From Isoptericola sp. BMS4 (GTDB lineage Bacteria > Actinomycetota > Actinomycetes > Actinomycetales > Cellulomonadaceae): a stretch of 64,000 nt of DNA. The stretch spans positions 1,860,034-1,924,033 of the forward strand of contig NZ_SIRP01000001.1 of NCBI RefSeq assembly GCF_011634835.1, written 5' to 3'. This document shows positions 13,280-26,157 of this stretch, in pieces. The position numbers and the translations under genes are program-made. Position 1 is the stretch's first letter. Each line of letters begins with the position of its first letter. Under the pieces are notes generated by a model. It ran no database searches and was not told where the DNA came from. It was given only the letters and a program-made list of their open reading frames with translations.

Positions 13280-14290
13280 ATGGCAGCATCTGACGACCTG
13301 ACCATCGGCTACGCCGCGATGCTCGAGCAGTTCCACCCCACCGACGTGGTCGAGTACTCGGCCTACGCGGAGGAGCACGGATTCTCGGGCGTCATGGCCG
13401 CCGACCACTTCCAGCCCTGGGTGCCGCAGCAGGGCGAGGCGGCCTTCGTGTGGAACGTGCTGACCGCGCTCGGCGAGCGCACCAGCGGGGACCTCGGGCC
13501 CGGCGTGACGGCGCCGACCTTCCGGTGGCACCCGGCCATGGTGGCGCAGGCCTCGGCCACGCTCGCCGCGATGTACCCGGGCCGCCACTGGCTCGGCCTC
13601 GGGTCCGGCGAGGCGCTGAACGAGCACGTCGTCGCGGGCTACTGGCCCGAGGCCCCGGAGCGGATCAACCGCATGTTCGAGGCCATCGACATCATCAAGA
13701 AGCTCTTCGCCTCCGGGATCGAGGGCAAGGACGTCAAGCACTCCGGGCAGTACTACAAGATGGAGTCCACGCGGCTGTGGACCATGCCGGAGGTGCCGCC
13801 GGAGATCCTCGTCGCCACCGCCGGCCCCATCACCGCCAAGCGTGCCGGCAAGCACGCGGACGGCCTCATCACCGTCGGGGCGCCGCTGGAGAAGATCGAG
13901 ATGCTGTTCGGCCGGTTCGACGCCGGCGTCAAGGAGTCCGGCCGCGACCCGGAGGGGATGCCGAAGGTGCTCCAGGTGCACATGTCGTGGGCCGAGACCG
14001 ACGAGGAGGCCATGGCCAACGCCATGACCGAGTGGCCCAACGGCGGCATGAAGTTCCCCAAGGCCGACATCCGCTCGCCGCACGACTTCGCGCAGATGGC
14101 CAAGCTCGTGCGCCCGGAGGACTTCGAGGGCCGGATGGTCGTCTCGTCCGACCCCGACGCGCACCGCGCCGCGATCCAGAAGTACGTCGACCTCGGGTTC
14201 GACCGGATCTACCTGCACAACGTGGGGCGCAACCAGAAGGAGTGGATCGAGGTCTTCGGCCGGGACGTCCTGCCGAAGCTGGCACGGTGA
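13280..14290 (+). CDS. F420-dependent LLM-class oxidoreductase, glucose-6-phosphate dehydrogenase family
   Basis: A 336-residue TIM-barrel enzyme of the luciferase-like monooxygenase class. It resembles F420-dependent glucose-6-phosphate dehydrogenase: ADHFQPW near the N-terminus, [27 protein letters not shown] and a glycine-rich [15 protein letters not shown]. It would use oxidised F420 as hydride acceptor. Whether the substrate is glucose-6-phosphate is not certain, since this subgroup includes other dehydrogenases. Its TGA overlaps the GTG of cofE by 4 nt, giving translational coupling to the last step of F420 synthesis. A -10 TAAGGT (13268-13273) predicts a leaderless mRNA. Confidence 0.85.
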
Positions 14291-15114
14291 GCGCGTCGGG
14301 CGCACGGCTCGCGGTCTGGGCTCCCGCCGGCCTGCCCGAGGTCCGCCCCGGCGACGACCTCGCGGCGCTCGTCGGCGACCTGCTCGCCGCCGACGCCGCG
14401 GCCTCGGGCGACCCGGTGGCCGAGGGCGACGTCGTCGTGGTGACGTCGAAGGTCGTGTCCAAGGCCGAGGGGCGCGTCGTGCGCGCCGCGGACCGCGAGC
14501 AGGCGATCACCGACGAGACCGTGCGCGTGGTCGCGTCCCGTACCCGGCCGGACGGGCAGCCGCCGCTGCGGATCGTCGAGAACCGGCTCGGCCTCGTCAT
14601 GGCCGCGGCCGGCGTCGACGCGTCGAACACGCCGGACGGCACCGTGCTGCTGCTGCCCGAGGACCCGGACGCCTCCGCGCGGGCGCTCCGCGCCGCGCTG
14701 CGGGCCCGCCTCGGCGTGGACCGGCTCGGTGTCGTCGTCACCGACACCGCCGGCCGGCCCTGGCGGGACGGTCTCGTCGACATCGCGATCGGTGCCGCGG
14801 GCGTCGCCGTCGTCGACGACCTGCGCGGCGGCACCGACGCCCACGGGCGGCCGATCTCCGTGACGGTGACGGCGGTGGCCGACGAGGTCGCCGCGGCGAG
14901 CGAGCTGGTGCGGGGCAAGACGGCGGGCCGTCCCGTCGCCGTCGTGCGGGGGCTGGCGCACCACGTGCTGCCCGGGGACGAGGCCGGGGCGGGCGCCCGC
15001 AGCCTCGTGCGCCCCAGCGCGGACGACCTGTTCCGCGAGGGCAGCGCCGAGGCCTACGCGCGGGGCGCCGCCGACGCCGCCGGAGCTCCCGGCGAGGCCG
15101 ACGGCGCCCGCTGA
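14287..15114 (+). CDS. cofE: Coenzyme F420-0:L-glutamate ligase
   Basis: A 275-residue CofE-type ligase (matching the N-terminal half of mycobacterial FbiB). It adds glutamates to F420-0 using GTP. Visible features: [17 protein letters not shown] near the N-terminus, [21 protein letters not shown], and [24 protein letters not shown], the metal and GTP-binding core. The second FbiB domain (FMN-binding dehydro-F420 reductase) is missing. The start overlaps the preceding dehydrogenase in GTGA. No fbiA, fbiC or fbiD homologue lies in the window; the ABC cassette at 52.6-55.6 kb may supply F420-0. Confidence 0.92.
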
Positions 15115-15207
15115 CCGCGTCGTGCGCGCGCCCGCGTCCTCGCGTCCGGCCGGCGGCCCGCGCAATTCGGCGTGCTCGCGGCCGCCCGAGCGCCCTAGGG
15201 TGCGGCC

Positions 15208-15594
15208 ATGCTTCCCGCCGACTGGATCGAGCACCGCCGTCCCGACGACCGCGAGCCACTGGGCTGGCTGCGGCCCGAGGGGGACACCTGGGTGGCCGTG
15301 TCGCTGCTCGGGCGCGAGGTCAGCGGGCCGCTGGACTGGACCGGCGCCGAGGAGGCGCTGGAGGAGGTCGGACTGTCGTGGATGGCCGACGTCTGGACGC
15401 TCGAGCGCGACGGCGAGGCGCCGCTGCGCGTGCGGCTCGTCGAGGTCACGCCGGAGCGCGTCGTCGTGCAGACCGACGACTTCGGCGCCGTCGACGCGCC
15501 GGTCGACCGCTACGAGCTGCCGTGGCCTGCGCCGGCCGGGCTGCGCCCGCGCCGCGACGACGACCCCGACGGGCGCGTCCTGTTCGCCCGGTGA
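15208..15594 (+). CDS. Conserved hypothetical protein
   Basis: A 128-residue soluble protein with no signal peptide or membrane segment. It is rich in Asp, Glu and Trp, with alternating strand-like stretches (PLRVRLVEVTPERVVVQTDDFG) suggesting a small beta fold. I recognise no catalytic motif. TAGGGT (15196-15201) ends 6 nt before the ATG, so the mRNA is probably leaderless. It is convergent with the VOC gene. Confidence 0.7.
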   Translation: MLPADWIEHRRPDDREPLGWLRPEGDTWVAVSLLGREVSGPLDWTGAEEALEEVGLSWMADVWTLERDGEAPLRVRLVEVTPERVVVQTDDFGAVDAPVDRYELPWPAPAGLRPRRDDDPDGRVLFAR

Positions 15595-15616
15595 CCGCGC
15601 CTCGCCCGGTCGCGGC

Positions 15617-15982
15617 TCACCCGGTCTCCGTCGTGCCCTCGTAGAGGCCGACGACGTTGCCGTCCGGGTCGGTGAAGGCGGCCCACCAGCTCGTCGGGCT
15701 GATCTCGCTCTTGGGCACCGCCACGGTCCCGCCGAGCTCGGTGGCCCTCGACAGCGCCTCGTCGATCGAGTCGACCTCGACGTAGCTGCGCGGCTGGGCG
15801 AAGCCGTCGGAGCGTGGCGCGAGCCCGCCTCCGCTGATCTGGTTCGGTGCGCGCCACATCGGGTAGTCCTCGAAGCCCGGCGGCGCCTCGATCCGCCAGC
15901 CGAAGACGCCGCCGTAGAACCGCTTGGCGCGGTCGAGATCCGACACCGGGATGTCGATGTGGGTGATGTCGCCGTGGGCCAT
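15617..15982 (-). CDS. VOC-superfamily (glyoxalase-like) protein
   Basis: A 121-residue protein with the paired beta-alpha-beta-beta-beta modules of the vicinal oxygen chelate fold. The opening ITHIDIPVSDLDRAKRFYGGVFGW and closing FTDPDGNVVGLYEG are typical. Potential metal ligands are the early His and late Glu. Substrate is unknown; members include glyoxalases, dioxygenases and resistance proteins. GAGGAG lies 6 nt before the ATG. Confidence 0.85.
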   Translation of the reverse strand: MAHGDITHIDIPVSDLDRAKRFYGGVFGWRIEAPPGFEDYPMWRAPNQISGGGLAPRSDGFAQPRSYVEVDSIDEALSRATELGGTVAVPKSEISPTSWWAAFTDPDGNVVGLYEGTTETG

Positions 15983-17644: not shown

Positions 17645-18823
17645 TCACGGTGTTGGGACGAACGACGTGCTGGAGCTGAGGTCCTCCAGCTGCCCCGAGG
17701 CGCCCGACCACAGCACCTTCGTGTCGGTCGCCGACGCGTCGACGACGTGGCGCACCGCGAGATTCGCGGCGACCTGGTTGCCGGACAGGAAGTTGCGCGC
17801 TCCGCTCTTGACCAGCACGACCGTCGGCGTCGCCCCCGACGGGACGATGTCCGCGCCGTCGACGGCGAACGAGAAGAGGTTGGCGGAGACGGCGTTGTCG
17901 TCGCCGTCGAGGTGCACCATGCCGTACAGGTCGTCGTTCCGGGCCGGACCGCCGTCGCCGAAGATGCGACGGAAGTGGTTGCCGGAGATCAGGTGCTCGT
18001 GGCACGGGGTCTCGTGCACGATCATCCCGGAGAAGTTGCTCACCAGCTTGTTGCCGGTGACGACGGCGCGGTGCACGTTCTTGCACTGGATGCGCGCGCC
18101 CCACAGCAGGCTGTTGCCGTTGATCACGCAGTTCTCCGCGTTCTCGACGAAGACGGAGTCGCCGCCCCACGGCGTGACGATCGTGTTGTTCGTGATCCGG
18201 CCGGCGATCGATCCACCGATCATCCGGACGCCGTTGCCGCACTCACCGATGAAGTTGTTCGTGATGAAGTACGCGTCCGCGTTGCGGACCGTGAGGGCCT
18301 CCTCGAGGTAGACGAAGCCCATGCCTTCGACGCGGACGGCGTCGTTGTCGTACTCGAAGCGGATGCCGGTCTTGCCATTGCCGTTCGCGCCGACGTACGG
18401 CTTGGAGCTGCTCACGCCGTCGAGGCAGAAGTCCTGGAAGACGACGGAGTTGAGCCGGCCGTTGGTGGCCGGGTCGCCGGCCCGGTTCACGAGGAAGCCC
18501 ACCTGCCCGTCGTTCGCGATCTGCACGTGGCTGGAACCCGGGAGCGTCTCGACCCACGCCGAATGGTCGACGTCGTCGCGGATGGCCTCGGAGAGGAAGC
18601 CGTGACCGGAGCCCTTGATCGTGAGGAACCCGACGTCGATGACCGCGGTCGTCTGGAGGGTGTAGTGCCCGGGCGGGATGTAGACGACGGCGCCGGGCCT
18701 CGTGGTCTGGCCTGTCTGCTGGGCGTGGATGTCGGCGACGATCTCATTGATCACCTGCCCGATGTCGGTCTGCGGGGACACGCTCGCGGGGAAGGTGGTG
18801 ACGTCGTACACGGTGGATGCCAC
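17645..18823 (-). CDS. GH91 inulin fructotransferase (difructose-dianhydride-forming)
   Basis: A 392-residue right-handed beta-helix protein of GH91. These enzymes cut difructose from inulin chain ends as a cyclic dianhydride (DFA I, EC 4.2.2.17, or DFA III, EC 4.2.2.18); some members instead hydrolyse DFA III. STVYDVTT at the start, RPGAVVYIPPGHY, IKGSGHGFLSEAIRD, FCLDGV, GMGFVYLEEAL and the tail SFVPTP are family hallmarks. The closest match I recall is the DFA-I-forming type. It lacks a signal peptide although inulin is extracellular; a Tat-signal frame sits just upstream. GTG follows GAGGAG. It is last in the importer operon under the LacI palindromes. Confidence 0.88.
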   Translation of the reverse strand: MASTVYDVTTFPASVSPQTDIGQVINEIVADIHAQQTGQTTRPGAVVYIPPGHYTLQTTAVIDVGFLTIKGSGHGFLSEAIRDDVDHSAWVETLPGSSHVQIANDGQVGFLVNRAGDPATNGRLNSVVFQDFCLDGVSSSKPYVGANGNGKTGIRFEYDNDAVRVEGMGFVYLEEALTVRNADAYFITNNFIGECGNGVRMIGGSIAGRITNNTIVTPWGGDSVFVENAENCVINGNSLLWGARIQCKNVHRAVVTGNKLVSNFSGMIVHETPCHEHLISGNHFRRIFGDGGPARNDDLYGMVHLDGDDNAVSANLFSFAVDGADIVPSGATPTVVLVKSGARNFLSGNQVAANLAVRHVVDASATDTKVLWSGASGQLEDLSSSTSFVPTP

Positions 18824-18839
18824 GGGGAGTCTCCTCTGG

Positions 18840-19040
18840 TCAGATCAGGCCGACGATGGCGTCGTAGGGCGGGGTCGCCGGAGCCTCGGCGGCTGCGGCG
18901 GCCCGTGCCGGACCGGGCCGTCCGTCCGGGAGCGCGCTGAGTGGTGCGGCCGCGGCGGCGATGCCGAGAGCCACGAGGACGCGACGCCGCGAGATCGGTG
19001 GGCCGGGGTTCGGCCGGGCATGGGGCCCGTCGTTCGTCAT
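18840..19040 (-). CDS. Small protein with twin-arginine signal, possibly the detached leader of the GH91 enzyme
   Basis: A 66-residue frame (ATG 19040; an in-frame GTG at 19046 is also possible). It has a clear Tat signal: SRRRVLVALG, an Ala-rich hydrophobic core, then ARAAAAAEAPATPPYDAIVGLI and stop. It ends 16 nt before the GH91 start, in a different frame. A one-base shift near the TGA would join it to GH91 through DQRRLPV. I cannot decide between an independent small exported protein, a frameshift or sequencing error, or recoding. Confidence 0.55.
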   Translation of the reverse strand: MTNDGPHARPNPGPPISRRRVLVALGIAAAAAPLSALPDGRPGPARAAAAAEAPATPPYDAIVGLI

Positions 19041-19104
19041 GGTCACCTGGTTTCGTGGGAACGGGTCGACGCGACGGCGCGCCGACAGTTGGGGGAGCGG
19101 GCTC

Positions 19105-20070
19105 CTAGCCCTTGACGGCGCCCGCGGTCAGGCCCGCGATGACGTGGCGCTGCAGCACGGCGTAGATCGCGAGCTGGGGGAGCAGGACCAGGGTTGCGGC
19201 GGCCATCATCCCGCCGTAGTTCACGGAGTACTGGCCCTGGAACTTGGAGACGGCCAACGAGATCGTCGCCAGGTCCGGGTCGTTGATGAGGACCGACACG
19301 AACGGGAACTCGTTGAACACGTAGACCACGTTGAAGATCACGACCGTGGCGAGGATGGGGCGCATCACCGGCACGACGACCGACCAGCAGAGCCGGAACA
19401 GCCCGGCGCCGTCGATGATGGCGGCCTCCTCGAGCTCGCCCGGCATGCCGCGCAGGAAGCCGGTGAGCAGCAGGGTGTTGAACGGGATGGACACCACGGC
19501 GTAGGGGAGGATCACCGCGGCGTAGGTGCCGAAGATGCCCAGGGCCAGGTCGAGGCGGTAGACCGGGAAGAGCAGCACGTAGACGGGCACCGCCAGCCCC
19601 GCCAGGAAGTACAGCAGGAGCGCGGACTGCACGCCGCGCCGCCGGAAGACCATGCGGGTCAGCGCGAACGACACCATGAACGAGACGGTGGTGCCGATCG
19701 TCACCGCGGCGGTGGCGATGATGATGGTGTTCTTGTACATCTGCACGAGCGGCAGCGTGGCGATGGCGTCCCGGTAGTTCTCGAGCGTGAGCGTCCGCAC
19801 CGAGAACGGGTCCGAGAGGATCTGGTCGCTCTGCTGGAAGGACAGCAGGACGATCCAGAGGATCGGCAGCACCACGAGGAAGACGATCAGGTAGGCGAAG
19901 CCGGCGACGACGAGGCGAGCGCGCAGCCGCCGACGGCGCTCTGCGTCCGGTGACGGGGCAGGCCGGTGCGCCGCGCGTCGGCGCCGGACGCCGGGGGCGC
20001 CCACGGGCGGCGCCGGTGCCTGGCGGTCGTGGACGGTGGCGGGGGACGGGGGAGCGCTCCGGGTGCTCAT
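19105..20070 (-). CDS. Sugar ABC transporter permease (MalG type)
   Basis: A 321-residue inner-membrane permease of the carbohydrate uptake type 1 family. A basic, disordered N-terminus (about 50 residues) precedes six predicted helices. The EAA loop reads ELEEAAIIDGAGLFRLCWSVVVPVMRP, the contact site for an ATPase. It overlaps the upstream permease in ATGA, so the two are translated together. The likely cargo is difructose dianhydride or short fructans, given the neighbours. No ATPase gene is linked. Confidence 0.9.
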   Translation of the reverse strand: MSTRSAPPSPATVHDRQAPAPPVGAPGVRRRRAAHRPAPSPDAERRRRLRARLVVAGFAYLIVFLVVLPILWIVLLSFQQSDQILSDPFSVRTLTLENYRDAIATLPLVQMYKNTIIIATAAVTIGTTVSFMVSFALTRMVFRRRGVQSALLLYFLAGLAVPVYVLLFPVYRLDLALGIFGTYAAVILPYAVVSIPFNTLLLTGFLRGMPGELEEAAIIDGAGLFRLCWSVVVPVMRPILATVVIFNVVYVFNEFPFVSVLINDPDLATISLAVSKFQGQYSVNYGGMMAAATLVLLPQLAIYAVLQRHVIAGLTAGAVKG

Positions 20071-20936
20071 GCGGACCGCCCGCGGCGTGCGAGGACCAGG
20101 TAGGCGAGCGAGGTGAGCGCGCCGAGGACGAGCACAACGACGGCGATCGCCATGCCGGACCCGTAGCGCTGGCTCGTGAAGGTGACGAAGTACATGTAGC
20201 TGACCAGGGTCTCGGAGCGGTGGACGGGGCCGCCGCCGGTGAGCATGTAGACGAGTTCGAAGATCTTGAAGACGTTGGTGACGAGCAGGATCGAGACGAT
20301 GCCGACGGTCTCGCGCATCATCGGGACGGTGACGTGGAGCAGCTGCTGCCAGCGGGTCGCGCCGTCGAGGGAGCTCGCCTCCATCACGTCGCCGGGGAGC
20401 TGTTGCAGGCCCGCGTAGAAGATCGTCATCGCGAAGCCGATGCTCGCCCAGCTGAAGACGAGAGCGATGGAGTAGGGCGTGAGCGAGTCGCCGCCGATCC
20501 ACTGGATCTCGGGGATCCCGAGGGGCACGAGCAGCCGGTTGAGCAGTCCGACCCGCGGGTCGAGGATGAACACCCAGACGAGGCCGACGAGGATCGGCGC
20601 CACGATCGCCGGCCCGAACAGGAGCGCCCGCAAGGCGCCCGCGGCCCGGATCCGCTGCTGCATCAGCAACGCCAGGGCGAAAGATGCCGGCACGAGGAAG
20701 GCCACGCTGACCACCAGGATGATGACGGTGTTCTTCAGCGACAGCCAGAAGAACGGGTCGTCGCCGAGCGTCGCGTAGTTGTCGAGCCCGATGAGCCGCG
20801 GCTCGCTGAAGCCTTGCGCGTCGGTGAGGCTGTAGCCCGTGCCGTACAGCACCGGGTAGGCGAAGAAGGCGGTGAACAGGACCAACGCGGGCAGGACCAT
20901 CACCGCGATCCTCGACCGCGAGCTGAGCCAGATCAT
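20067..20936 (-). CDS. Sugar ABC transporter permease (MalF type)
   Basis: A 289-residue permease with six predicted helices and the EAA loop DVMEASSLDGATRWQQLLHVTVPMMRE. It is the partner of the following MalG-type protein. It starts 12 nt after the substrate-binding protein gene, with GGAGG-like purines before its ATG. The N-terminal helix SRIAVMVLPALVLFTAFFAYP is typical of MsmF/UgpA-like permeases. Confidence 0.9.
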   Translation of the reverse strand: MIWLSSRSRIAVMVLPALVLFTAFFAYPVLYGTGYSLTDAQGFSEPRLIGLDNYATLGDDPFFWLSLKNTVIILVVSVAFLVPASFALALLMQQRIRAAGALRALLFGPAIVAPILVGLVWVFILDPRVGLLNRLLVPLGIPEIQWIGGDSLTPYSIALVFSWASIGFAMTIFYAGLQQLPGDVMEASSLDGATRWQQLLHVTVPMMRETVGIVSILLVTNVFKIFELVYMLTGGGPVHRSETLVSYMYFVTFTSQRYGSGMAIAVVVLVLGALTSLAYLVLARRGRSA

Positions 20937-20948
20937 GAGGAGGAGTCC

Positions 20949-22262
20949 TTACTCGGCTTCCAGCGCCCGCTGGACGAGCGCGGCGGCCTCGGTAGGCGTG
21001 AGCTGGTCCTGGATGACGCCGTAGATCGAGTCGTAGATGGCGTTGGCGACGGCGACGGGGAACACGAGGTCGGGCTGGGTCGCCGGAGCGGCCACGCCGT
21101 CCTCGCTCGCCGCGTCCAGCGCCGCGGAGAGCACCGACTGCTCCGACTCCTCGAGCGTCGGCTCGTACGTCGTGACGGGCGGCTGGCCGTTGTCGACCAT
21201 GAGCTGCTGCGCCTCGTCGCTGTAGTAGAAGCCGAGGAACCTCTCGACGGCCGCGAGCTTCGCGTCGTCCTCGCCGACCTTCTTCGCGACGGCGAGGGGC
21301 GCCGAGGCCACGTTCATGATGATGTTCTGCTCACCGACGCCGTCGGCGAAGGTGGGGCCCTTCCAGAAGGCGGCGTGCGGCGCGACGTCGGAGTCCTGGA
21401 TCGCGCCCGCGGCCCAGACGCCCGCGTCGAGGAAGGCCGCGTCGCCCTGCAGGAACTGGTCGACCGCCTGCTGGTAGGTCTGCGTGGCCACGTTGCTGGA
21501 GAACGCCCCGGCGTCGCGCAGCTCAGCGATGTGCTCGTACATCCGCACGAAGTCGGGGTTGTCCCACGACTCCGAGCCGTCCAGCAGACCGTCCATCCTG
21601 TCTTCGAAGCCGAAGCGGTCCAGCCACACCAGGAACTGCCAGACGCTGAACGCCGACTGGCTCGCGCCGTTCGAGATCGTCACGACGCCGTCGTCGTCGA
21701 GCTCCTCGGCGACCTGGAGCAGCTCGTCGAAGGTGGACGGCATCGCGAGCCCGTGGTCCTCGAGCACCTTGGTGTTGGTCCACAGACCGGTCAGGAGACC
21801 CTGGTACGGCACGCCGAAGACCGTGTCCCCGGACGTGAAGTGTTCCACGGTGGTCGCGGGAAGGTGCTCGATGACGCCCTGTTCCTGCAGGATCGGCCGC
21901 AGGTCCAGCAGCCGGTCCCCGGCGAGCATCTCCTCGGCGTTCGACTTGTAGACCCAGAAGATGTCGGGGAGCGTGTCGCTCTGCGCGGCGATCGACAGCG
22001 ACTGGAGGTGCTCGGAGACCGGCTGGCCGCTGACCTCGACGTCGATGTCCGGGTTGGCGCTCTCGAAGGCCTCCACGATCGCCCACGTGGCGGGATCTGC
22101 GGTCTTCACGTCGGCGTTCTGCATCGAGAGCGTGATGGTGGTCGTGCCGTCCTGACCGGTGTCACCCGCTTCTGAGCAGGCTGCGAGGGGCAGGGCCACG
22201 GCGAGGGCCGCGGCCGCTGCGAGGCCGCGGCGGCCGTGTCGGCGGGGCTGGTAACCAGGCAT
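20949..22262 (-). CDS. Sugar ABC transporter substrate-binding lipoprotein
   Basis: A 437-residue extracytoplasmic solute-binding protein. A basic N-terminus, hydrophobic core and lipobox LAAC (Cys29) mark it as a lipoprotein. The body is a family-1 solute-binding fold (VSGQPVSEHLQSLSIAAQSDTLPDIFWV, then DTVFGVPYQGLLTGLWTN), as for oligosaccharides. GAAGGA precedes the ATG. It is the first gene of a five-gene operon (binding protein, two permeases, small Tat frame, GH91) under a TTGACA promoter with two LacI-like palindromes. Binding of DFA or inulin oligomers is inference. Confidence 0.9.
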   Translation of the reverse strand: MPGYQPRRHGRRGLAAAAALAVALPLAACSEAGDTGQDGTTTITLSMQNADVKTADPATWAIVEAFESANPDIDVEVSGQPVSEHLQSLSIAAQSDTLPDIFWVYKSNAEEMLAGDRLLDLRPILQEQGVIEHLPATTVEHFTSGDTVFGVPYQGLLTGLWTNTKVLEDHGLAMPSTFDELLQVAEELDDDGVVTISNGASQSAFSVWQFLVWLDRFGFEDRMDGLLDGSESWDNPDFVRMYEHIAELRDAGAFSSNVATQTYQQAVDQFLQGDAAFLDAGVWAAGAIQDSDVAPHAAFWKGPTFADGVGEQNIIMNVASAPLAVAKKVGEDDAKLAAVERFLGFYYSDEAQQLMVDNGQPPVTTYEPTLEESEQSVLSAALDAASEDGVAAPATQPDLVFPVAVANAIYDSIYGVIQDQLTPTEAAALVQRALEAE

Positions 22263-22310
22263 GTCTCGTCCTTCGTTGGGTGAGGCCCGGGGGCGGATTT
22301 CGTTGATCTA

Positions 22311-22367
22311 GCGAAACGTTTGCGCGAATCGTTTGCGAGGCTACGTGGGGTGCGTCACGCCTGTCAA
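22311..22367 (-). promoter_or_regulatory. Promoter and tandem LacI operators of the importer/GH91 operon
   Basis: On the minus strand TTGACA (22367-22362), an 18-bp spacer and TAGCCT (22343-22338) form a good promoter. Just downstream two 13-bp elements abut: GCGAATCGTTTGC (22324-22336) and GCGAAACGTTTGC (22311-22323, top strand). They cover the expected transcript start, so a bound LacI protein would repress. Confidence 0.72.
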
Positions 22368-22383
22368 GGGGTGCCCCGTGGCG

Positions 22384-23391
22384 TCAGTCGGCGCGGAGTC
22401 GGTGGCCCTCGGTCGACTCGCGGAGCTCCAGCCGCTGGTTGAGCCGGAGCGTGCGCGGGCTGGCGTCCGGGGACGCGATCCGGTCGAGCAGCAGCGCCAC
22501 CGCCGCCTCGCCCATCTCGAACGCCGGCTGGCGCACGGTCGTGATGGTGGGCCGGAAGAGGTCCGAGTGGCTGAACCCGTCGAACGCGGCGAACGCGACC
22601 TGCTCGGGCGTCGAGAGGCCGGCGTCCCGCAGGCACTCGAGGCTCGCGACGGCCAGCGGCGTGCTGGCGGCGATGACGCACGTCGCGCGGCCGGCACGGA
22701 GCGCGGCCGCCACGCCCGCGCGGACTGACGCGGGATCGACCGCGTCGACCGTCGTCTGCTCGGCAAGCTCGGCGTCGGGGATCGCGTCACGGAACCCTTG
22801 CCGGCGCTCGACGAGCGTCGGGACCCGCTGGTCCCCGGCGACCAGGAGGAACCGGCGGTGGCCCGCGTCGCGCAGGTGCCCCACGAGGCGGCGCATCGTC
22901 TCCCGGTTGTCCGCGCCCACCTGGTCGTGCGGCGAGCCGTCGAAGACGCGGTCGAGCAGGACGGCGGGCCGCGCGTCGTCGGCCTCGAGCCGCGCCCTGA
23001 CGGCGCGGCCGGAGTTCGCGCAGTGCGCCAGGATCAGGCCGTCGACGCGGCGCGCGAGGAGCGTGCTCACCGCGCGCTCCTCGCGCTCGGGGTCCTCCGC
23101 CGAGTTCGCGAGCACCAGCGTCAGTCCCCGGGCCGCCGCGGCGTGCTCCACGCCGTGGACCATCTCCGCGAACGCCGGCTCCCCGGCGTCGGACACGACC
23201 AGGCCGATGCTGTCGGTCCGTGAGCGGCGCATGGCGCGGGCGACGGCGTCCTGGCGGTAGCCGGTCTCCTCGATCGCTGCGACGACCCGCTTGCGCGTCG
23301 CAGGCTGGACCGGGCGCGTCCCGTTGAGCACGTGCGAGACGGTCGACGTGGACACCCCGGCGATCCGGGCGACTTCGACGATCGTCGCCAT
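22384..23391 (-). CDS. LacI-family transcriptional regulator of the fructan/DFA locus
   Basis: A 335-residue LacI/GalR regulator. The DNA-binding helix-turn-helix is TIVEVARIAGVSTSTVSHVLNG and the hinge follows at about residue 50. The rest is a periplasmic-binding-like effector domain. GGAGG lies 5 nt before ATG 23391; an upstream in-frame TTG is less likely. It lies between the two operons, and AAACGTTT palindromes occur at both their promoters, so it probably represses both. The inducer is likely DFA, inulobiose or fructose. Confidence 0.92.
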   Translation of the reverse strand: MATIVEVARIAGVSTSTVSHVLNGTRPVQPATRKRVVAAIEETGYRQDAVARAMRRSRTDSIGLVVSDAGEPAFAEMVHGVEHAAAARGLTLVLANSAEDPEREERAVSTLLARRVDGLILAHCANSGRAVRARLEADDARPAVLLDRVFDGSPHDQVGADNRETMRRLVGHLRDAGHRRFLLVAGDQRVPTLVERRQGFRDAIPDAELAEQTTVDAVDPASVRAGVAAALRAGRATCVIAASTPLAVASLECLRDAGLSTPEQVAFAAFDGFSHSDLFRPTITTVRQPAFEMGEAAVALLLDRIASPDASPRTLRLNQRLELRESTEGHRLRAD

Positions 23392-23465
23392 CGACGCCTC
23401 CAATCAATCATTTTCCTCACGGGTCCCGCCGGTCGCGGAGCCCTGAGTCTGCAGGCTAACCCTCG

Positions 23466-23520
23466 TTGCGCGCCTGGCGAGCGTCGCCTACGATCCGAAC
23501 GACGACAAGCAAACGTTTCG
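23466..23520 (+). promoter_or_regulatory. Promoter and LacI operator of the GH172-GH32 operon
   Basis: TTGCGC (23466-23471), a 17-bp spacer and TACGAT (23489-23494) predict a start near 23501. GCAAACGTTTCG (23509-23520) follows at once. It is the reverse complement of the core of the operators at the importer promoter. Confidence 0.68.
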
Positions 23521-23561
23521 ATGCATTCTAGCCGCTCGCTCGCTACCGCGAAAGGACCACC

Positions 23562-24914
23562 ATGACCCCCACACCCCCGTTCGGCGGGCTCCTCGGAGAC
23601 CTCACCCGGGCCCGGCCGGGCCGCAGCGCTCGGGCCTCCAGCTTCGACCAGACGGGTCGCAACCGGGACAACTGGATCGTGATGCCCGGGGAGGAGCGCG
23701 TCCTCGCCGACCTCGAGGGCCCGGGCGCCATCACCCACATCTGGATGACCCAGTCGTGCCGGGTCCAGCCGGGGCCGGGTCAGATCGCTCCCGACGTCGT
23801 CGGCGTGCCCATGCTCGAGATCCACAACGCGCTCGGCGTGAGCTGGGAGGTCGTCGACCCCGACTACTACCGCAAGGTCCTGCTGAAGATCTATTGGGAC
23901 GGCCAGGAGACGCCGAGCGTCATCGCCCCGCTCGGCGACTTCTTCGGCCTGATGAACTCGCTGTCGGGCAGCTACGACTCCCTGCCGCTGTCGGTGTCCG
24001 CCAAGGAGCCCGAGCTCCACACCTTCGGGGGCAGCGCGGCGTTCAACAGCTACTTCCGCATGCCCTTCGGGGAGCGTGCCCGCGTCGTCGTCGAGAACCA
24101 GAACGACATCCCGTACCTGCAGTACTTCTACATCGACTACGAGCTCTTCCCGGAGCCGTTGCCGGTCGACACGGTCTACTTCCACGCGCACTGGCGCCGT
24201 GCCCTGCCGAACCGCGGCTGGGGGCCCGACCTGCAGACCAACAGCATCGAGACGACGGTGGCGAACCTCGACGGCGCGGACAACTACGTCGCCTTGGAGA
24301 CCGAGGGCCGCGGGCACTACGTGGGCTGCAACCTCGCCGTCCGGCACTTCCAGGGCTCCTGGTGGGGGGAGGGCGACGACATGATCTTCATCGACGACGA
24401 CACGTGGCCACCCAGCCTGCACGGCACGGGGATGGAGGACTACTTCGGTCACGCGTGGGGCATGCAGCACAACGCCTACACGTTCAACGGGACGATGGTC
24501 CACGAGGAGGACGTGCCGGGGTTCCACCACAGCTACCGGTTCCATCTCGTGGACCCGGTGCGTTTCGAGAAGCGGATCAAGGTGACGTTCGAGCACGGGC
24601 ACGGCAACCACCTGTCCGACGACTGGTCGTCCACGGCGTACTGGTACCAGACGCTGCCCTCGCCGGTGCTCACGGTGCCGGACGTCGAGGAGCGGCTGCC
24701 GCTGCGGCCGGTGGACCGCGTCATCGAGGCACCGCTGCCGCCGCTCAGCGCGGAGCAGGCTGCCGCCCGCGACGTCGCCGCGGCGCGGATGGAGAAGTTC
24801 ACCGCGGACCGCGACGCGCTGCGTGCCGAGCGCCGCCGCGAGGTCGACGACTGGGAGCGCGGCAACCGTGAGCAGGCCCTTGCCGTCCGCCGCACGTACG
24901 ACGGGAGGGCGTGA
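23562..24914 (+). CDS. GH172 (DUF2961) glycoside hydrolase, probable difructose dianhydride hydrolase
   Basis: A 450-residue protein of the DUF2961/GH172 family. The founding member, alpha-FFase1 of Bifidobacterium dentium, makes and hydrolyses difructose dianhydride I. The two conserved acids are Glu270 (WWGEGDDM) and Glu292 (GTGMEDYF), in the same arrangement as the nucleophile and acid/base reported for that enzyme. No signal peptide is seen, so it acts in the cytoplasm on imported sugar. Family members also cut D-arabinan, but a neighbouring GH91 and GH32 argue for DFA. The GH32 start follows its stop after one base. Confidence 0.87.
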   Translation: MTPTPPFGGLLGDLTRARPGRSARASSFDQTGRNRDNWIVMPGEERVLADLEGPGAITHIWMTQSCRVQPGPGQIAPDVVGVPMLEIHNALGVSWEVVDPDYYRKVLLKIYWDGQETPSVIAPLGDFFGLMNSLSGSYDSLPLSVSAKEPELHTFGGSAAFNSYFRMPFGERARVVVENQNDIPYLQYFYIDYELFPEPLPVDTVYFHAHWRRALPNRGWGPDLQTNSIETTVANLDGADNYVALETEGRGHYVGCNLAVRHFQGSWWGEGDDMIFIDDDTWPPSLHGTGMEDYFGHAWGMQHNAYTFNGTMVHEEDVPGFHHSYRFHLVDPVRFEKRIKVTFEHGHGNHLSDDWSSTAYWYQTLPSPVLTVPDVEERLPLRPVDRVIEAPLPPLSAEQAAARDVAAARMEKFTADRDALRAERRREVDDWERGNREQALAVRRTYDGRA

Positions 24915-24915
24915 G

Positions 24916-26157
24916 ATGCGACCGCAGGTGCACTTCACCGCGGAGTCGGGCTGGATCAACGACCCGCACGGCCTGACCTTCCACGACGGCGCGTACCACC
25001 TCTTCCACCAGTACGTCCCCGGCAGCACCGAGTGGGCGCCGCACTGCCACTGGGGGCATGCCGTCGGCCGCGACCTCCTCACCTGGGAGCGCCGTCCGGT
25101 CGCGATCGCTCCCGGCGACGGCGACGACGGCATCTGGACCGGCAGTCTCGTGCGCGACGACGCCGGCGGGGTGCGCATCCTCTACACCTCGGTGGTCCAG
25201 CCCGACATCGGGATCGGGCGCGTCCGCGTGGCCGTGCCCGCCGACGGCTCGTGGGACACCTGGACCAAGGGGGACGTGCTGGTCGAGGCGCCCGGCGACC
25301 TCGACCTCATCGCCTACCGTGACCCGTTCGTCATGCGCGACGGCGAGGGCTGGCGCATGTTCGTGGGCGCCGCGGACCGCGCGGGCACGGCCATGGCCCT
25401 CACGTACACGTCCGGGGACCTGACCCGCTGGACGTACGACGGCGTCGCGGCGTCGCGCTCGACCGACGAGCGGTCGCCGGTCTGGATGGGGGCGCTGTGG
25501 GAGTGCCCCCAGTTCTTCGAGGTCGACGGCCGGTGGGTCATGGTGAGCTCGATCTGGGACGACGACGTGCTGCACCATGCCGGGTACGCGCTCGGCTCCT
25601 ACGCCGACGGCCGGTTCGAGGCGGACACGTGGGGCCGGCTCAGCTTCGGCGACAGCTACTACGCGCCGTCCTTCTTCCGGGACCGCGAGGGTCGCCCGTG
25701 CCTGATGTTCTGGATGCGCGGGGTGCGTGACGACGACGCGGGCTGGAGCAGCTGCCTCAGCATTCCGCACGTCCTGTCCGTCGTCGACGGGCGCCTCGTC
25801 GCCACCCCGCACCCTGACCTCGGGGCGCGGCGGCGCCGGGAGATCGAGGGCGGCGAGACGGTGGTCGACACGGTGGTTGACATGGAGTGGGAGCCGCACC
25901 GCGAGGGCGACCGCCTGGTGCTCATGTCCGGAGACCTGGAGAGCGTCGTCGTCGCCGTCGGGGACGGCGTCGTCCGGCTGGACCGCCCGGGCCGCAAGAG
26001 CGCGCTGATGCCGTGGTCGGGTGGGGCGCTCCGGGTGGTCGCCGACGGCCCGGCCCTGGAGATCTCGTCGCGGGACGGGGTGCTCGGCGGCCCCGTCGAG
26101 CCCGTCGACCGGATGCTGCAGGTCGCGGGGGGTCTTCGCGCCTGGCAGGTCGGCTGA
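24916..26157 (+). CDS. GH32 beta-fructofuranosidase (intracellular)
   Basis: A 413-residue GH32 enzyme. The catalytic set is complete: nucleophile Asp16 in WINDPHG, transition-state stabiliser Asp136 in RDP, and acid/base Glu196 in WECPQ. A short C-terminal beta-sandwich follows the five-blade propeller. No signal peptide is present. It would split inulobiose (from DFA opening), sucrose or short fructans to fructose. It sits one base after the GH172 stop, so the two are almost certainly cotranslated. The gene ends at a bidirectional terminator. Confidence 0.93.
   Translation: MRPQVHFTAESGWINDPHGLTFHDGAYHLFHQYVPGSTEWAPHCHWGHAVGRDLLTWERRPVAIAPGDGDDGIWTGSLVRDDAGGVRILYTSVVQPDIGIGRVRVAVPADGSWDTWTKGDVLVEAPGDLDLIAYRDPFVMRDGEGWRMFVGAADRAGTAMALTYTSGDLTRWTYDGVAASRSTDERSPVWMGALWECPQFFEVDGRWVMVSSIWDDDVLHHAGYALGSYADGRFEADTWGRLSFGDSYYAPSFFRDREGRPCLMFWMRGVRDDDAGWSSCLSIPHVLSVVDGRLVATPHPDLGARRRREIEGGETVVDTVVDMEWEPHREGDRLVLMSGDLESVVVAVGDGVVRLDRPGRKSALMPWSGGALRVVADGPALEISSRDGVLGGPVEPVDRMLQVAGGLRAWQVG

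Follow-up and report, generated by a model that had tools for sequence, protein, structure and literature searches.

The window analyzed here, a 64,000-nucleotide stretch of the 4.43-Mb genome of the soil actinobacterium Isoptericola sp. BMS4 (contig NZ_SIRP01000001.1, positions 1,860,034 to 1,924,033), contains at positions 17645-26157 a gene cluster predicted to convert inulin to fructose, in which an inulin lyase of family GH91 is preceded by a very small gene, hereafter the mini-gene, that encodes a leader of the twin-arginine translocation (Tat) type. An earlier sequence-only reading had placed GH91, a sugar importer, one LacI gene, GH172, and GH32 together at this locus, and all of these were recovered there on the expected strands with matches to their families. 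The features are as follows.

17645-18823, minus strand: GH91 inulin fructotransferase (inulin lyase), predicted to be of the difructose dianhydride (DFA) I type; 392 amino acids (aa), GTG start; matches Pfam Beta_helix_2 of inulin fructotransferase (E 1.1e-29)
18840-19040, minus strand: mini-gene of 66 codons (66 aa); Tat-type leader ISRRRVLVALG, Ala/Pro-rich linker, C-terminal tail PPYDAIVGLI
19105-20070, minus strand: permease 2 of the ATP-binding cassette (ABC) importer, 321 aa; BPD_transp_1 (E 6e-16)
20067-20936, minus strand: ABC importer permease 1, 289 aa; BPD_transp_1 (E 2.7e-13)
20949-22262, minus strand: extracellular solute-binding protein; SBP_bac_1 (E 6.3e-28), with DFA I as presumed ligand
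22312-22336, unstranded: two putative LacI-type operator boxes, CGAAACGTTTGC and CGAATCGTTTGC, before the importer operon
22384-23403, minus strand: LacI-family repressor, by family match
23509-23520, unstranded: third putative LacI-type operator box, between lacI and GH172
23562-24914, plus strand: GH172 (DUF2961) difructose dianhydride I synthase/hydrolase, 450 aa (E 4.4e-81); 224 of 409 aligned residues identical to 7v1v
24916-26157, plus strand: GH32 beta-fructofuranosidase, 413 aa (E 4.6e-60), ATG at 24916; presumed to cleave inulobiose in the cytosol

The GH91 gene encodes no signal peptide, and its GTG is the only ATG, GTG, or TTG between the upstream in-frame stop codon and the conserved N terminus. 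The mini-gene stops 16 nucleotides (nt) before this GTG in a different frame, and a purine-rich stretch precedes GH91's own start. Neither the mini-gene nor the lack of a signal on GH91 had been noticed in the sequence-only reading, and the separate Tat-type leader is the new part of the locus. Inspection of the window mini-protein with curated models revealed a score of 20.6 bits with TIGR01409 (TAT_signal_seq), which passes the cut-off of 16.7, and of 14.1 with Pfam TAT_signal, which is below the cut-off of 22.7; the genome also contains TatC. The arrangement that characterizes a Tat hitchhiker pair is thus present, with a Tat-type signal on the mini-protein and none on GH91. A frameshift or assembly error in GH91 was ruled out, as 47 genes show the same layout of two open reading frames (ORFs), with frames and gaps that vary among them.

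The distribution of the leader was surveyed with two rules. The first combined a tail-based mini-gene pattern with the fused-leader pattern [ST]RR, which became [STP]RR in an extension to 20 more loci of the Arthrobacter group; the second is independent of the tail and takes any ORF with RR and a hydrophobic stretch that ends at most 300 nt upstream of GH91. In the extension sample, 101 of 206 genomes matched, 30 places were taken as loci (28 of them new), and the next 20 lyase-like ones were taken by E-value; the partial lyase-like places G1262 and G1206 and further hydrolase-like ones were left out of the count. Four rows were set aside (a fragment in L022 and broken genes in L041, L042, and L043, of which L041 and L043 represent one gene), and nine duplicate rows were dropped. 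Genes of at least 425 aa were classed as hydrolase-like (14 genes, 13 of them counted, as L080, at base 8, lacks upstream DNA). G470 was taken as Arthrobacter because L044, named as an Arthrobacter plasmid, sits among G470 genes in the tree.

In the first set, without filtering by the tail, GH91 was preceded by an ORF of the mini-gene type in all 12 loci of DFA I type from actinobacteria and in neither of the two from Lachnospiraceae. Across all 69 actinobacterial lyase-like GH91 genes (68 distinct proteins, since L084 and L085 carry the same GH91 core in two genomes), 47 (45 plus 2) have the mini-gene and no signal of their own, 21 carry a fused Tat-type leader without a mini-gene, the two forms never occur together, and one gene (L033) has neither; exactly one Tat-type leader is therefore found for 68 of the 69. 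L033 lies on a very long branch and comes from a genome with 7% contamination. The 21 fused leaders comprise 3 from the first survey, 15 from the extension, and 3 in the extension (L083, L094, and L097, with G before RR) that the pattern missed and that were counted by eye; all three are found by the second rule. A looser fused-leader pattern additionally flagged L028 in a frame that is not that of its gene. Lyase-like genes with neither form number five over all taxa: L015 and L024 (Lachnospiraceae), L018 and L019 (alphaproteobacteria), and L033. Among the hydrolase-like genes with upstream DNA, neither a mini-gene nor a fused leader was found by either rule in 13 of 13.

The tail-independent rule returned 45 ORFs before lyase-like genes, every one of which ends in the tail, and none before hydrolase-like genes. 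It also returned 21 fused leaders, no gene with both forms, and seven lyase-like genes with neither; these are the five named above together with L009 and L011, whose mini-genes were missed by the hydropathy criterion. The distance from the mini-gene stop to the matched GH91 stretch ranges from 14 to 214 nt, and all three relative frames occur.

In the trees, the fused form maps to a single clade, to which 2inu and 9j4i belong. The detached form maps to two, namely the DFA I clade and a clade of the Arthrobacter group that lies next to the hydrolases. Only 5 changes of leader label are needed on the tree, against 35 on average when labels are shuffled. A Fisher p of 8e-17 was computed from hand-typed counts and ignores kinship, and it is not a fair probability because the tree needs only those 5 changes. 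The second mini-bearing clade consists of 30 GH91 lyases of the Arthrobacter group (L026, L028, L044, and 27 loci among L054-L091), is sister to the DFA III hydrolases, and has cores of 399-400 aa where printed; in several of its genomes, a hydrolase-like GH91 is present as well. A mini-gene also accompanies L053, a gene of the Arthrobacter group that falls in the DFA I part of the tree. In Streptomyces, degraded GH91 genes were observed in L041/L043 and L042, the latter of which keeps a mini-gene end with the tail.

The mini-protein is 56-77 aa long including the leader, except in L014 (91 aa), in 21 rows for which starts were chosen by hand. Its very C terminus follows the consensus H/Y-x-x-I/L-I/V-G-L/V/M-L. 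The tail pattern ends 52 of 7512 ORFs of at least 45 codons (a background to which L081-L100 do not belong); 51 of these have the ends of classified mini-genes, duplicates included, and the remaining one is the remnant in L042 beside a degraded GH91. Outside the pattern itself, 38 of the 39 distinct tails carry H or Y at position -8. All 45 mini-genes of the first survey have RR-x-hydrophobic-hydrophobic, of which RR was required by the rule, and AxA before the tail. The remainder of the protein drifts, a pattern to be expected of a leader followed by a loose linker and a putative docking tail that is fixed. On the side of the enzyme, a residue scan of GH91 gave 18 positions that are kept in both mini-bearing clades and not in the fused-leader clade, five of which (T4, V5, Q39, N104, and E166) are also absent from hydrolase-like genes; V5 is F in Lachnospiraceae. 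To name the N-terminal 'TVYDV' strand of GH91 as the docking site of the tail would be only a guess.

A minimal model for these observations is export of GH91 in trans, with the mini-gene encoding a detached Tat signal. The C-terminal tail of the mini-protein would dock on folded GH91, the two proteins would cross the membrane together via the Tat translocase, and the leader would presumably be cut at the AxA site. We think it quite probable, on sequence evidence, that the locus serves a DFA I route and that its GH91 is exported by a detached Tat signal, the mini-protein being a minimal Tat hitchhiker carrier. It is also reasonably likely that actinobacterial inulin lyases are exported by a signal with a gene of its own (Tat signal, linker, and docking tail), that the detached and fused forms have been switched within one family, and that both were dropped in the intracellular hydrolases. 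An intracellular location of the Arthrobacter DFA-IIIase is described in excerpts of PMC11538131. For the DFA I enzyme of A. globiformis, Haraguchi 2011 (PMC5448860) reported an extracellular enzyme, found in the culture supernatant, and a gene without a signal peptide structure; for DFA III genes, the same paper gives encoded signal peptides 32 and 40 residues long. The alternation of detached and fused leaders fits both statements, DFA I without and DFA III with a signal.

In known Tat hitchhiking, as in Ni-Fe hydrogenases, formate dehydrogenases, and PaoABC, a Tat signal on one partner likewise serves a signal-less partner, according to excerpts of PMC10924467 and PMC4273604. The known carrier, however, is an enzyme subunit, whereas the mini-protein would be a carrier consisting of little more than a signal and a docking tail. 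Hitchhiking as such is thus known, and a carrier without a body of its own was not found described in the open-access literature, covered by titles and the beginnings of abstracts. In that same literature, no separate leader gene for an inulin fructotransferase was found; subscription papers, such as the 1995 paper on the gene and a 2016 paper on S. davawensis, lie outside this scope. Small Tat-signal proteins beside an enzyme also constitute the family TIGR02811 (formate dehydrogenase region TAT target). Seven of 14 mini-proteins match this model weakly over the leader, at 15.5-31.5 bits against a cut-off of 48.45, and the match is to the leader and not to the tail because both fused GH91 leaders match too.

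Several observations weigh against export in trans along a DFA I route. The cut-off of TIGR01409 is passed by 2 of 14 mini-proteins and by neither of the two fused leaders scanned, and Pfam TAT_signal matched four of six mini-proteins below its cut-off and left the other two unmatched. Tail positions -5 to -1 belonged to the first survey rule, and conservation there is partly built in. Taken as a whole, the mini-protein evolves fast, with a ratio of nonsynonymous to synonymous changes per site (pN/pS) of 0.69 against 0.21 for GH91 when the window is compared with L006. AlphaFold models of the natural same-frame read-throughs of L010 and L007 left the leader and tail unplaced, with a predicted local distance difference test (pLDDT) score of 26-42 for the block; with only 3 of the 15 rows covering this part and with short linkers, the models are a weak test that gives docking no support and does not exclude it. 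Most of the genes in the counts are closely related and belong to one genus. In favor of export in trans, 17 of the 19 genomes examined proved to contain TatC, and the two in which no match was obtained are those of the Lachnospiraceae L015 and L024, whose GH91 genes belong to the DFA I clade and lack the mini-gene; this correlation amounts to one split, between Actinomycetota and Lachnospiraceae, and could be due to lineage alone. By contrast, L018 (6251-7411) and L019 (1826-3013) come from genomes with TatC and have a lyase-like GH91 with neither mini-gene nor signal. With regard to the sugar, residue 200 of GH91 is R in the window, L006, and L007, Q in L016, and E in most other DFA I-type GH91s (motif 'IELTG'); the product of the window enzyme is not certain because R200 replaces the usual E, and product specificity in the window, L006, L007, and L016 may differ owing to this residue. 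L018 and L019 each also hold a second, hydrolase-like GH91 in the same locus.

An alternative that we regard as rather unlikely is that the mini-protein is exported alone by the Tat system and acts on GH91 or the cell exterior as a chaperone, activator, or anchor, GH91 leaving the cell by other means. The conserved tail would suit such a role, and there is a precedent in MelC1, a copper chaperone that is larger than the mini-protein. In Streptomyces, this separate trans-activator protein mediates secretion of the tyrosinase MelC2, as stated in the title of Leu et al. 1992 (listed in PMC4273604). The resemblance does not extend to sequence, since the NCBIfam MelC1 model gives two mini-proteins 13.1 and 14.4 bits against a cut-off of 120, and a length of 56-77 aa including the leader (91 aa in L014) leaves little room for a domain. 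Moreover, the mini-gene accompanies 0 of 21 genes with a fused Tat-type leader and 47 of the 48 actinobacterial lyase-like genes without one, and its absence with a fused leader and presence without therefore fit replacement of a signal rather than an additional function.

We consider it improbable that the mini-ORF acts as a regulatory or coupling leader for the translation of GH91 and that its peptide has no role. In favor of this, the ORF is small and stands immediately upstream of GH91, and in L016 an operator box lies just inside the ORF start. Nevertheless, residues are kept at both ends of the mini-protein while the gap to GH91 varies from 14 to 214 nt, and a coupling ORF would need neither a Tat motif nor a fixed C terminus.

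That GH91 is cytosolic, with inulin oligosaccharides imported and DFA I both made and opened inside the cell, appears highly unlikely. It would account for the missing signal on GH91 and for the Lachnospiraceae and alphaproteobacterial relatives that have neither signal nor mini-gene, but the A. globiformis DFA I enzyme was found in the culture supernatant (PMC5448860), the S. davawensis enzyme is called extracellular in excerpts of PMC8605356, and a cell that both formed and reopened the ring internally would run a futile cycle.

The chance that leader and GH91 are joined into one precursor by stop codon read-through or frameshifting seems very slight. L007, L009, and L010 do have both in one frame with a single TGA between them. 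However, the gap length modulo 3 (n = 45) is 0 in 13 cases, 1 in 11, and 2 in 21, so that simple read-through could explain 13 at most, and frameshifts in either direction would have to be assumed; in the window, leader and GH91 are in different frames, and the purine-rich stretch stands before a start that belongs to GH91. A read-through fusion was accordingly rejected on the same recurrence of the two-ORF layout in 47 genes with varying frames and gaps.

The sugar that would pass through the locus in the favored reading, export of GH91 in trans, was assigned from GH91 and GH172. The window GH91 scores 474 bits against 8hsn, 309 against 2inu, 302 against 9j4i, and at most 242 against DFA-IIIase. 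The entries 8hsn and 8hui carry the title 'DFA I-forming Inulin Lyase' from Streptomyces peucetius, 9j4i is named DFA-III-forming, and 2inu we take to be DFA III-forming. In two trees, a branch with support of 100/100 and 99 places the window GH91 together with 8hsn, Streptomyces, and C. clostridioforme and separates it from 2inu, 9j4i, 5zky, and the hydrolases. The positions D183 and E194, presumably the catalytic Asp and Glu of GH91, are invariant in a four-sequence alignment. SdIFTase of Streptomyces davaonensis and EcIFTase of Enterocloster clostridioformis are named DFA-I forming in excerpts of PMC11538131. GH91 as a DFA-IIIase was excluded by scores, length (392 aa against 435-463 aa in hydrolase-like genes), and tree. 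The closest GH91 found elsewhere, 87% identical, occurs in a genome of the same genus and in Isoptericola sediminis, and these two occurrences proved to be one locus.

Against the DFA I synthase/hydrolase, the window GH172 reaches 522 bits, compared with at most 196 against the three other chains found, and 10 of 11 active-site or calcium residues match the Bifidobacterium dentium enzyme. Identity extends to Glu291, Glu270, Trp267, Asp292, Tyr187, Trp298, and the +1 subsite residues Glu85 and Lys147. Among the side chains that bind calcium, Asn31 and Asp33 are conserved and Asn272 is replaced by Asp. In the B. dentium enzyme, changes at Glu85 or Lys147 spared arabinofuranosidase activity and left <5% of the inulobiose activity, according to excerpts of PMC8605356. 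A neighborhood search for GH91 and GH172 pairs, as proposed in the sequence-only reading, found the pair in 14 of 19 related GH91 loci, with a GH172 homologue of at least 51% identity in each and one weak match (31%) in L021; these 14 are the loci whose GH91 is at least 50.8% identical to that of the window, i.e. DFA I-type. A second GH172, 58% identical to the window's, was observed in L013 (Streptomyces) at 14527-15816 between further transport-gene homologues.

On the basis of the GH91 scores and trees, the GH172 residues, and the presence of GH172 in 14 of the 19 loci, the pathway is assigned to DFA I and not to DFA III. The sequence-only order of events, in which inulin is converted to a DFA that is taken up and opened in the cytosol, is supported and can be narrowed to DFA I, but it had taken secretion of GH91 for granted although the gene lacks a signal. 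The whole gene set of the three-stage pathway (GH91, importer, GH172, and GH32) lies within the one locus in the window. GH91 would turn inulin into DFA I outside the cell, the ABC importer would take up DFA I, GH172 would open it to inulobiose, and GH32 would split inulobiose to fructose. It is well supported that this is a further DFA I utilization locus, with enzyme activities and importer substrate as predicted from sequence. The family of GH172 also includes D-arabinan enzymes (8ic8, an exo-alpha-D-arabinofuranosidase, at 104 bits; excerpts of PMC10115798 and PMC10509167), but the possibility that GH172 is one here and the locus no DFA I pathway is negligible, given a score of 522 bits and identity to the DFA I enzyme at 224 of 409 residues, and an arabinanase was ruled out by the +1 residues Glu85 and Lys147, which are needed for inulobiose and not for arabinofuranoside (excerpts of PMC8605356).

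The joining of GH91 to GH172, suggested as novel in the sequence-only reading, had already been described. According to excerpts of Kashima 2021 (PMC8605356), GH91, GH172, and GH32 (BN159_0194) are linked in one neighborhood of Streptomyces davawensis, and a three-stage route through DFA I is proposed, with synthesis outside by a GH91 called extracellular, import, and opening inside, as in the window; unlike in the window, a separate leader gene is not mentioned in those excerpts. Judging from the numbering of the locus tags, S. davawensis could have five genes between GH91 and GH172; LacI, three transport genes, and a mini-gene would make up that number. In Bifidobacterium dentium, GH172, GH32, and ABC genes also lie together (BBDE_2039-2043), but that genome is without a putative GH91 gene (excerpts of PMC8605356). 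A counterpart pathway for DFA III is described in Blautia in excerpts of PMC11538131.

The shared palindromes noted earlier proved real. The box CGAAACGTTTGC occurs exactly at 22312 and 23509 and with one mismatch at 22325, i.e. in front of the importer operon (22312 and 22325) and between lacI and GH172 (23509), and one LacI repressor may control both transcription units. At up to two mismatches, six matches were found in the window, three of them outside the locus (8014, 16549, and 37756); six or more matches were obtained in 2 of 100 shuffles. Boxes with at most two mismatches are also present at the corresponding places in L006, L007, L014, and L016. In L016, whose GH91 is found downstream of GH32 and apart from the importer, the mini-gene has two additional boxes, one before its start and one just inside it. 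Elsewhere in the window, an ORF with an F420-0:gamma-glutamyl ligase domain lies outside the locus at 13450-15114 (plus strand). A tRNA-Ala called by ARAGORN inside permease 1 (20586-20668, minus strand), on its coding strand, is most likely false.

The pathway adds another example of private sugar cycling as known for cyclodextrins. If export in trans is true, it would explain the exit from the cell of an extracellular enzyme whose gene encodes no signal peptide, a gap in print since 2011 for the DFA I enzyme (PMC5448860). It would also provide a very small Tat carrier, and a portable pair of leader-linker-tail and cargo with which unjoined Tat signals could be studied. To our knowledge, the mini-protein would be the smallest Tat carrier. 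The finding suggests that other secreted enzymes without a signal may have tiny Tat-type ORFs upstream, which are easily overlooked in annotation.

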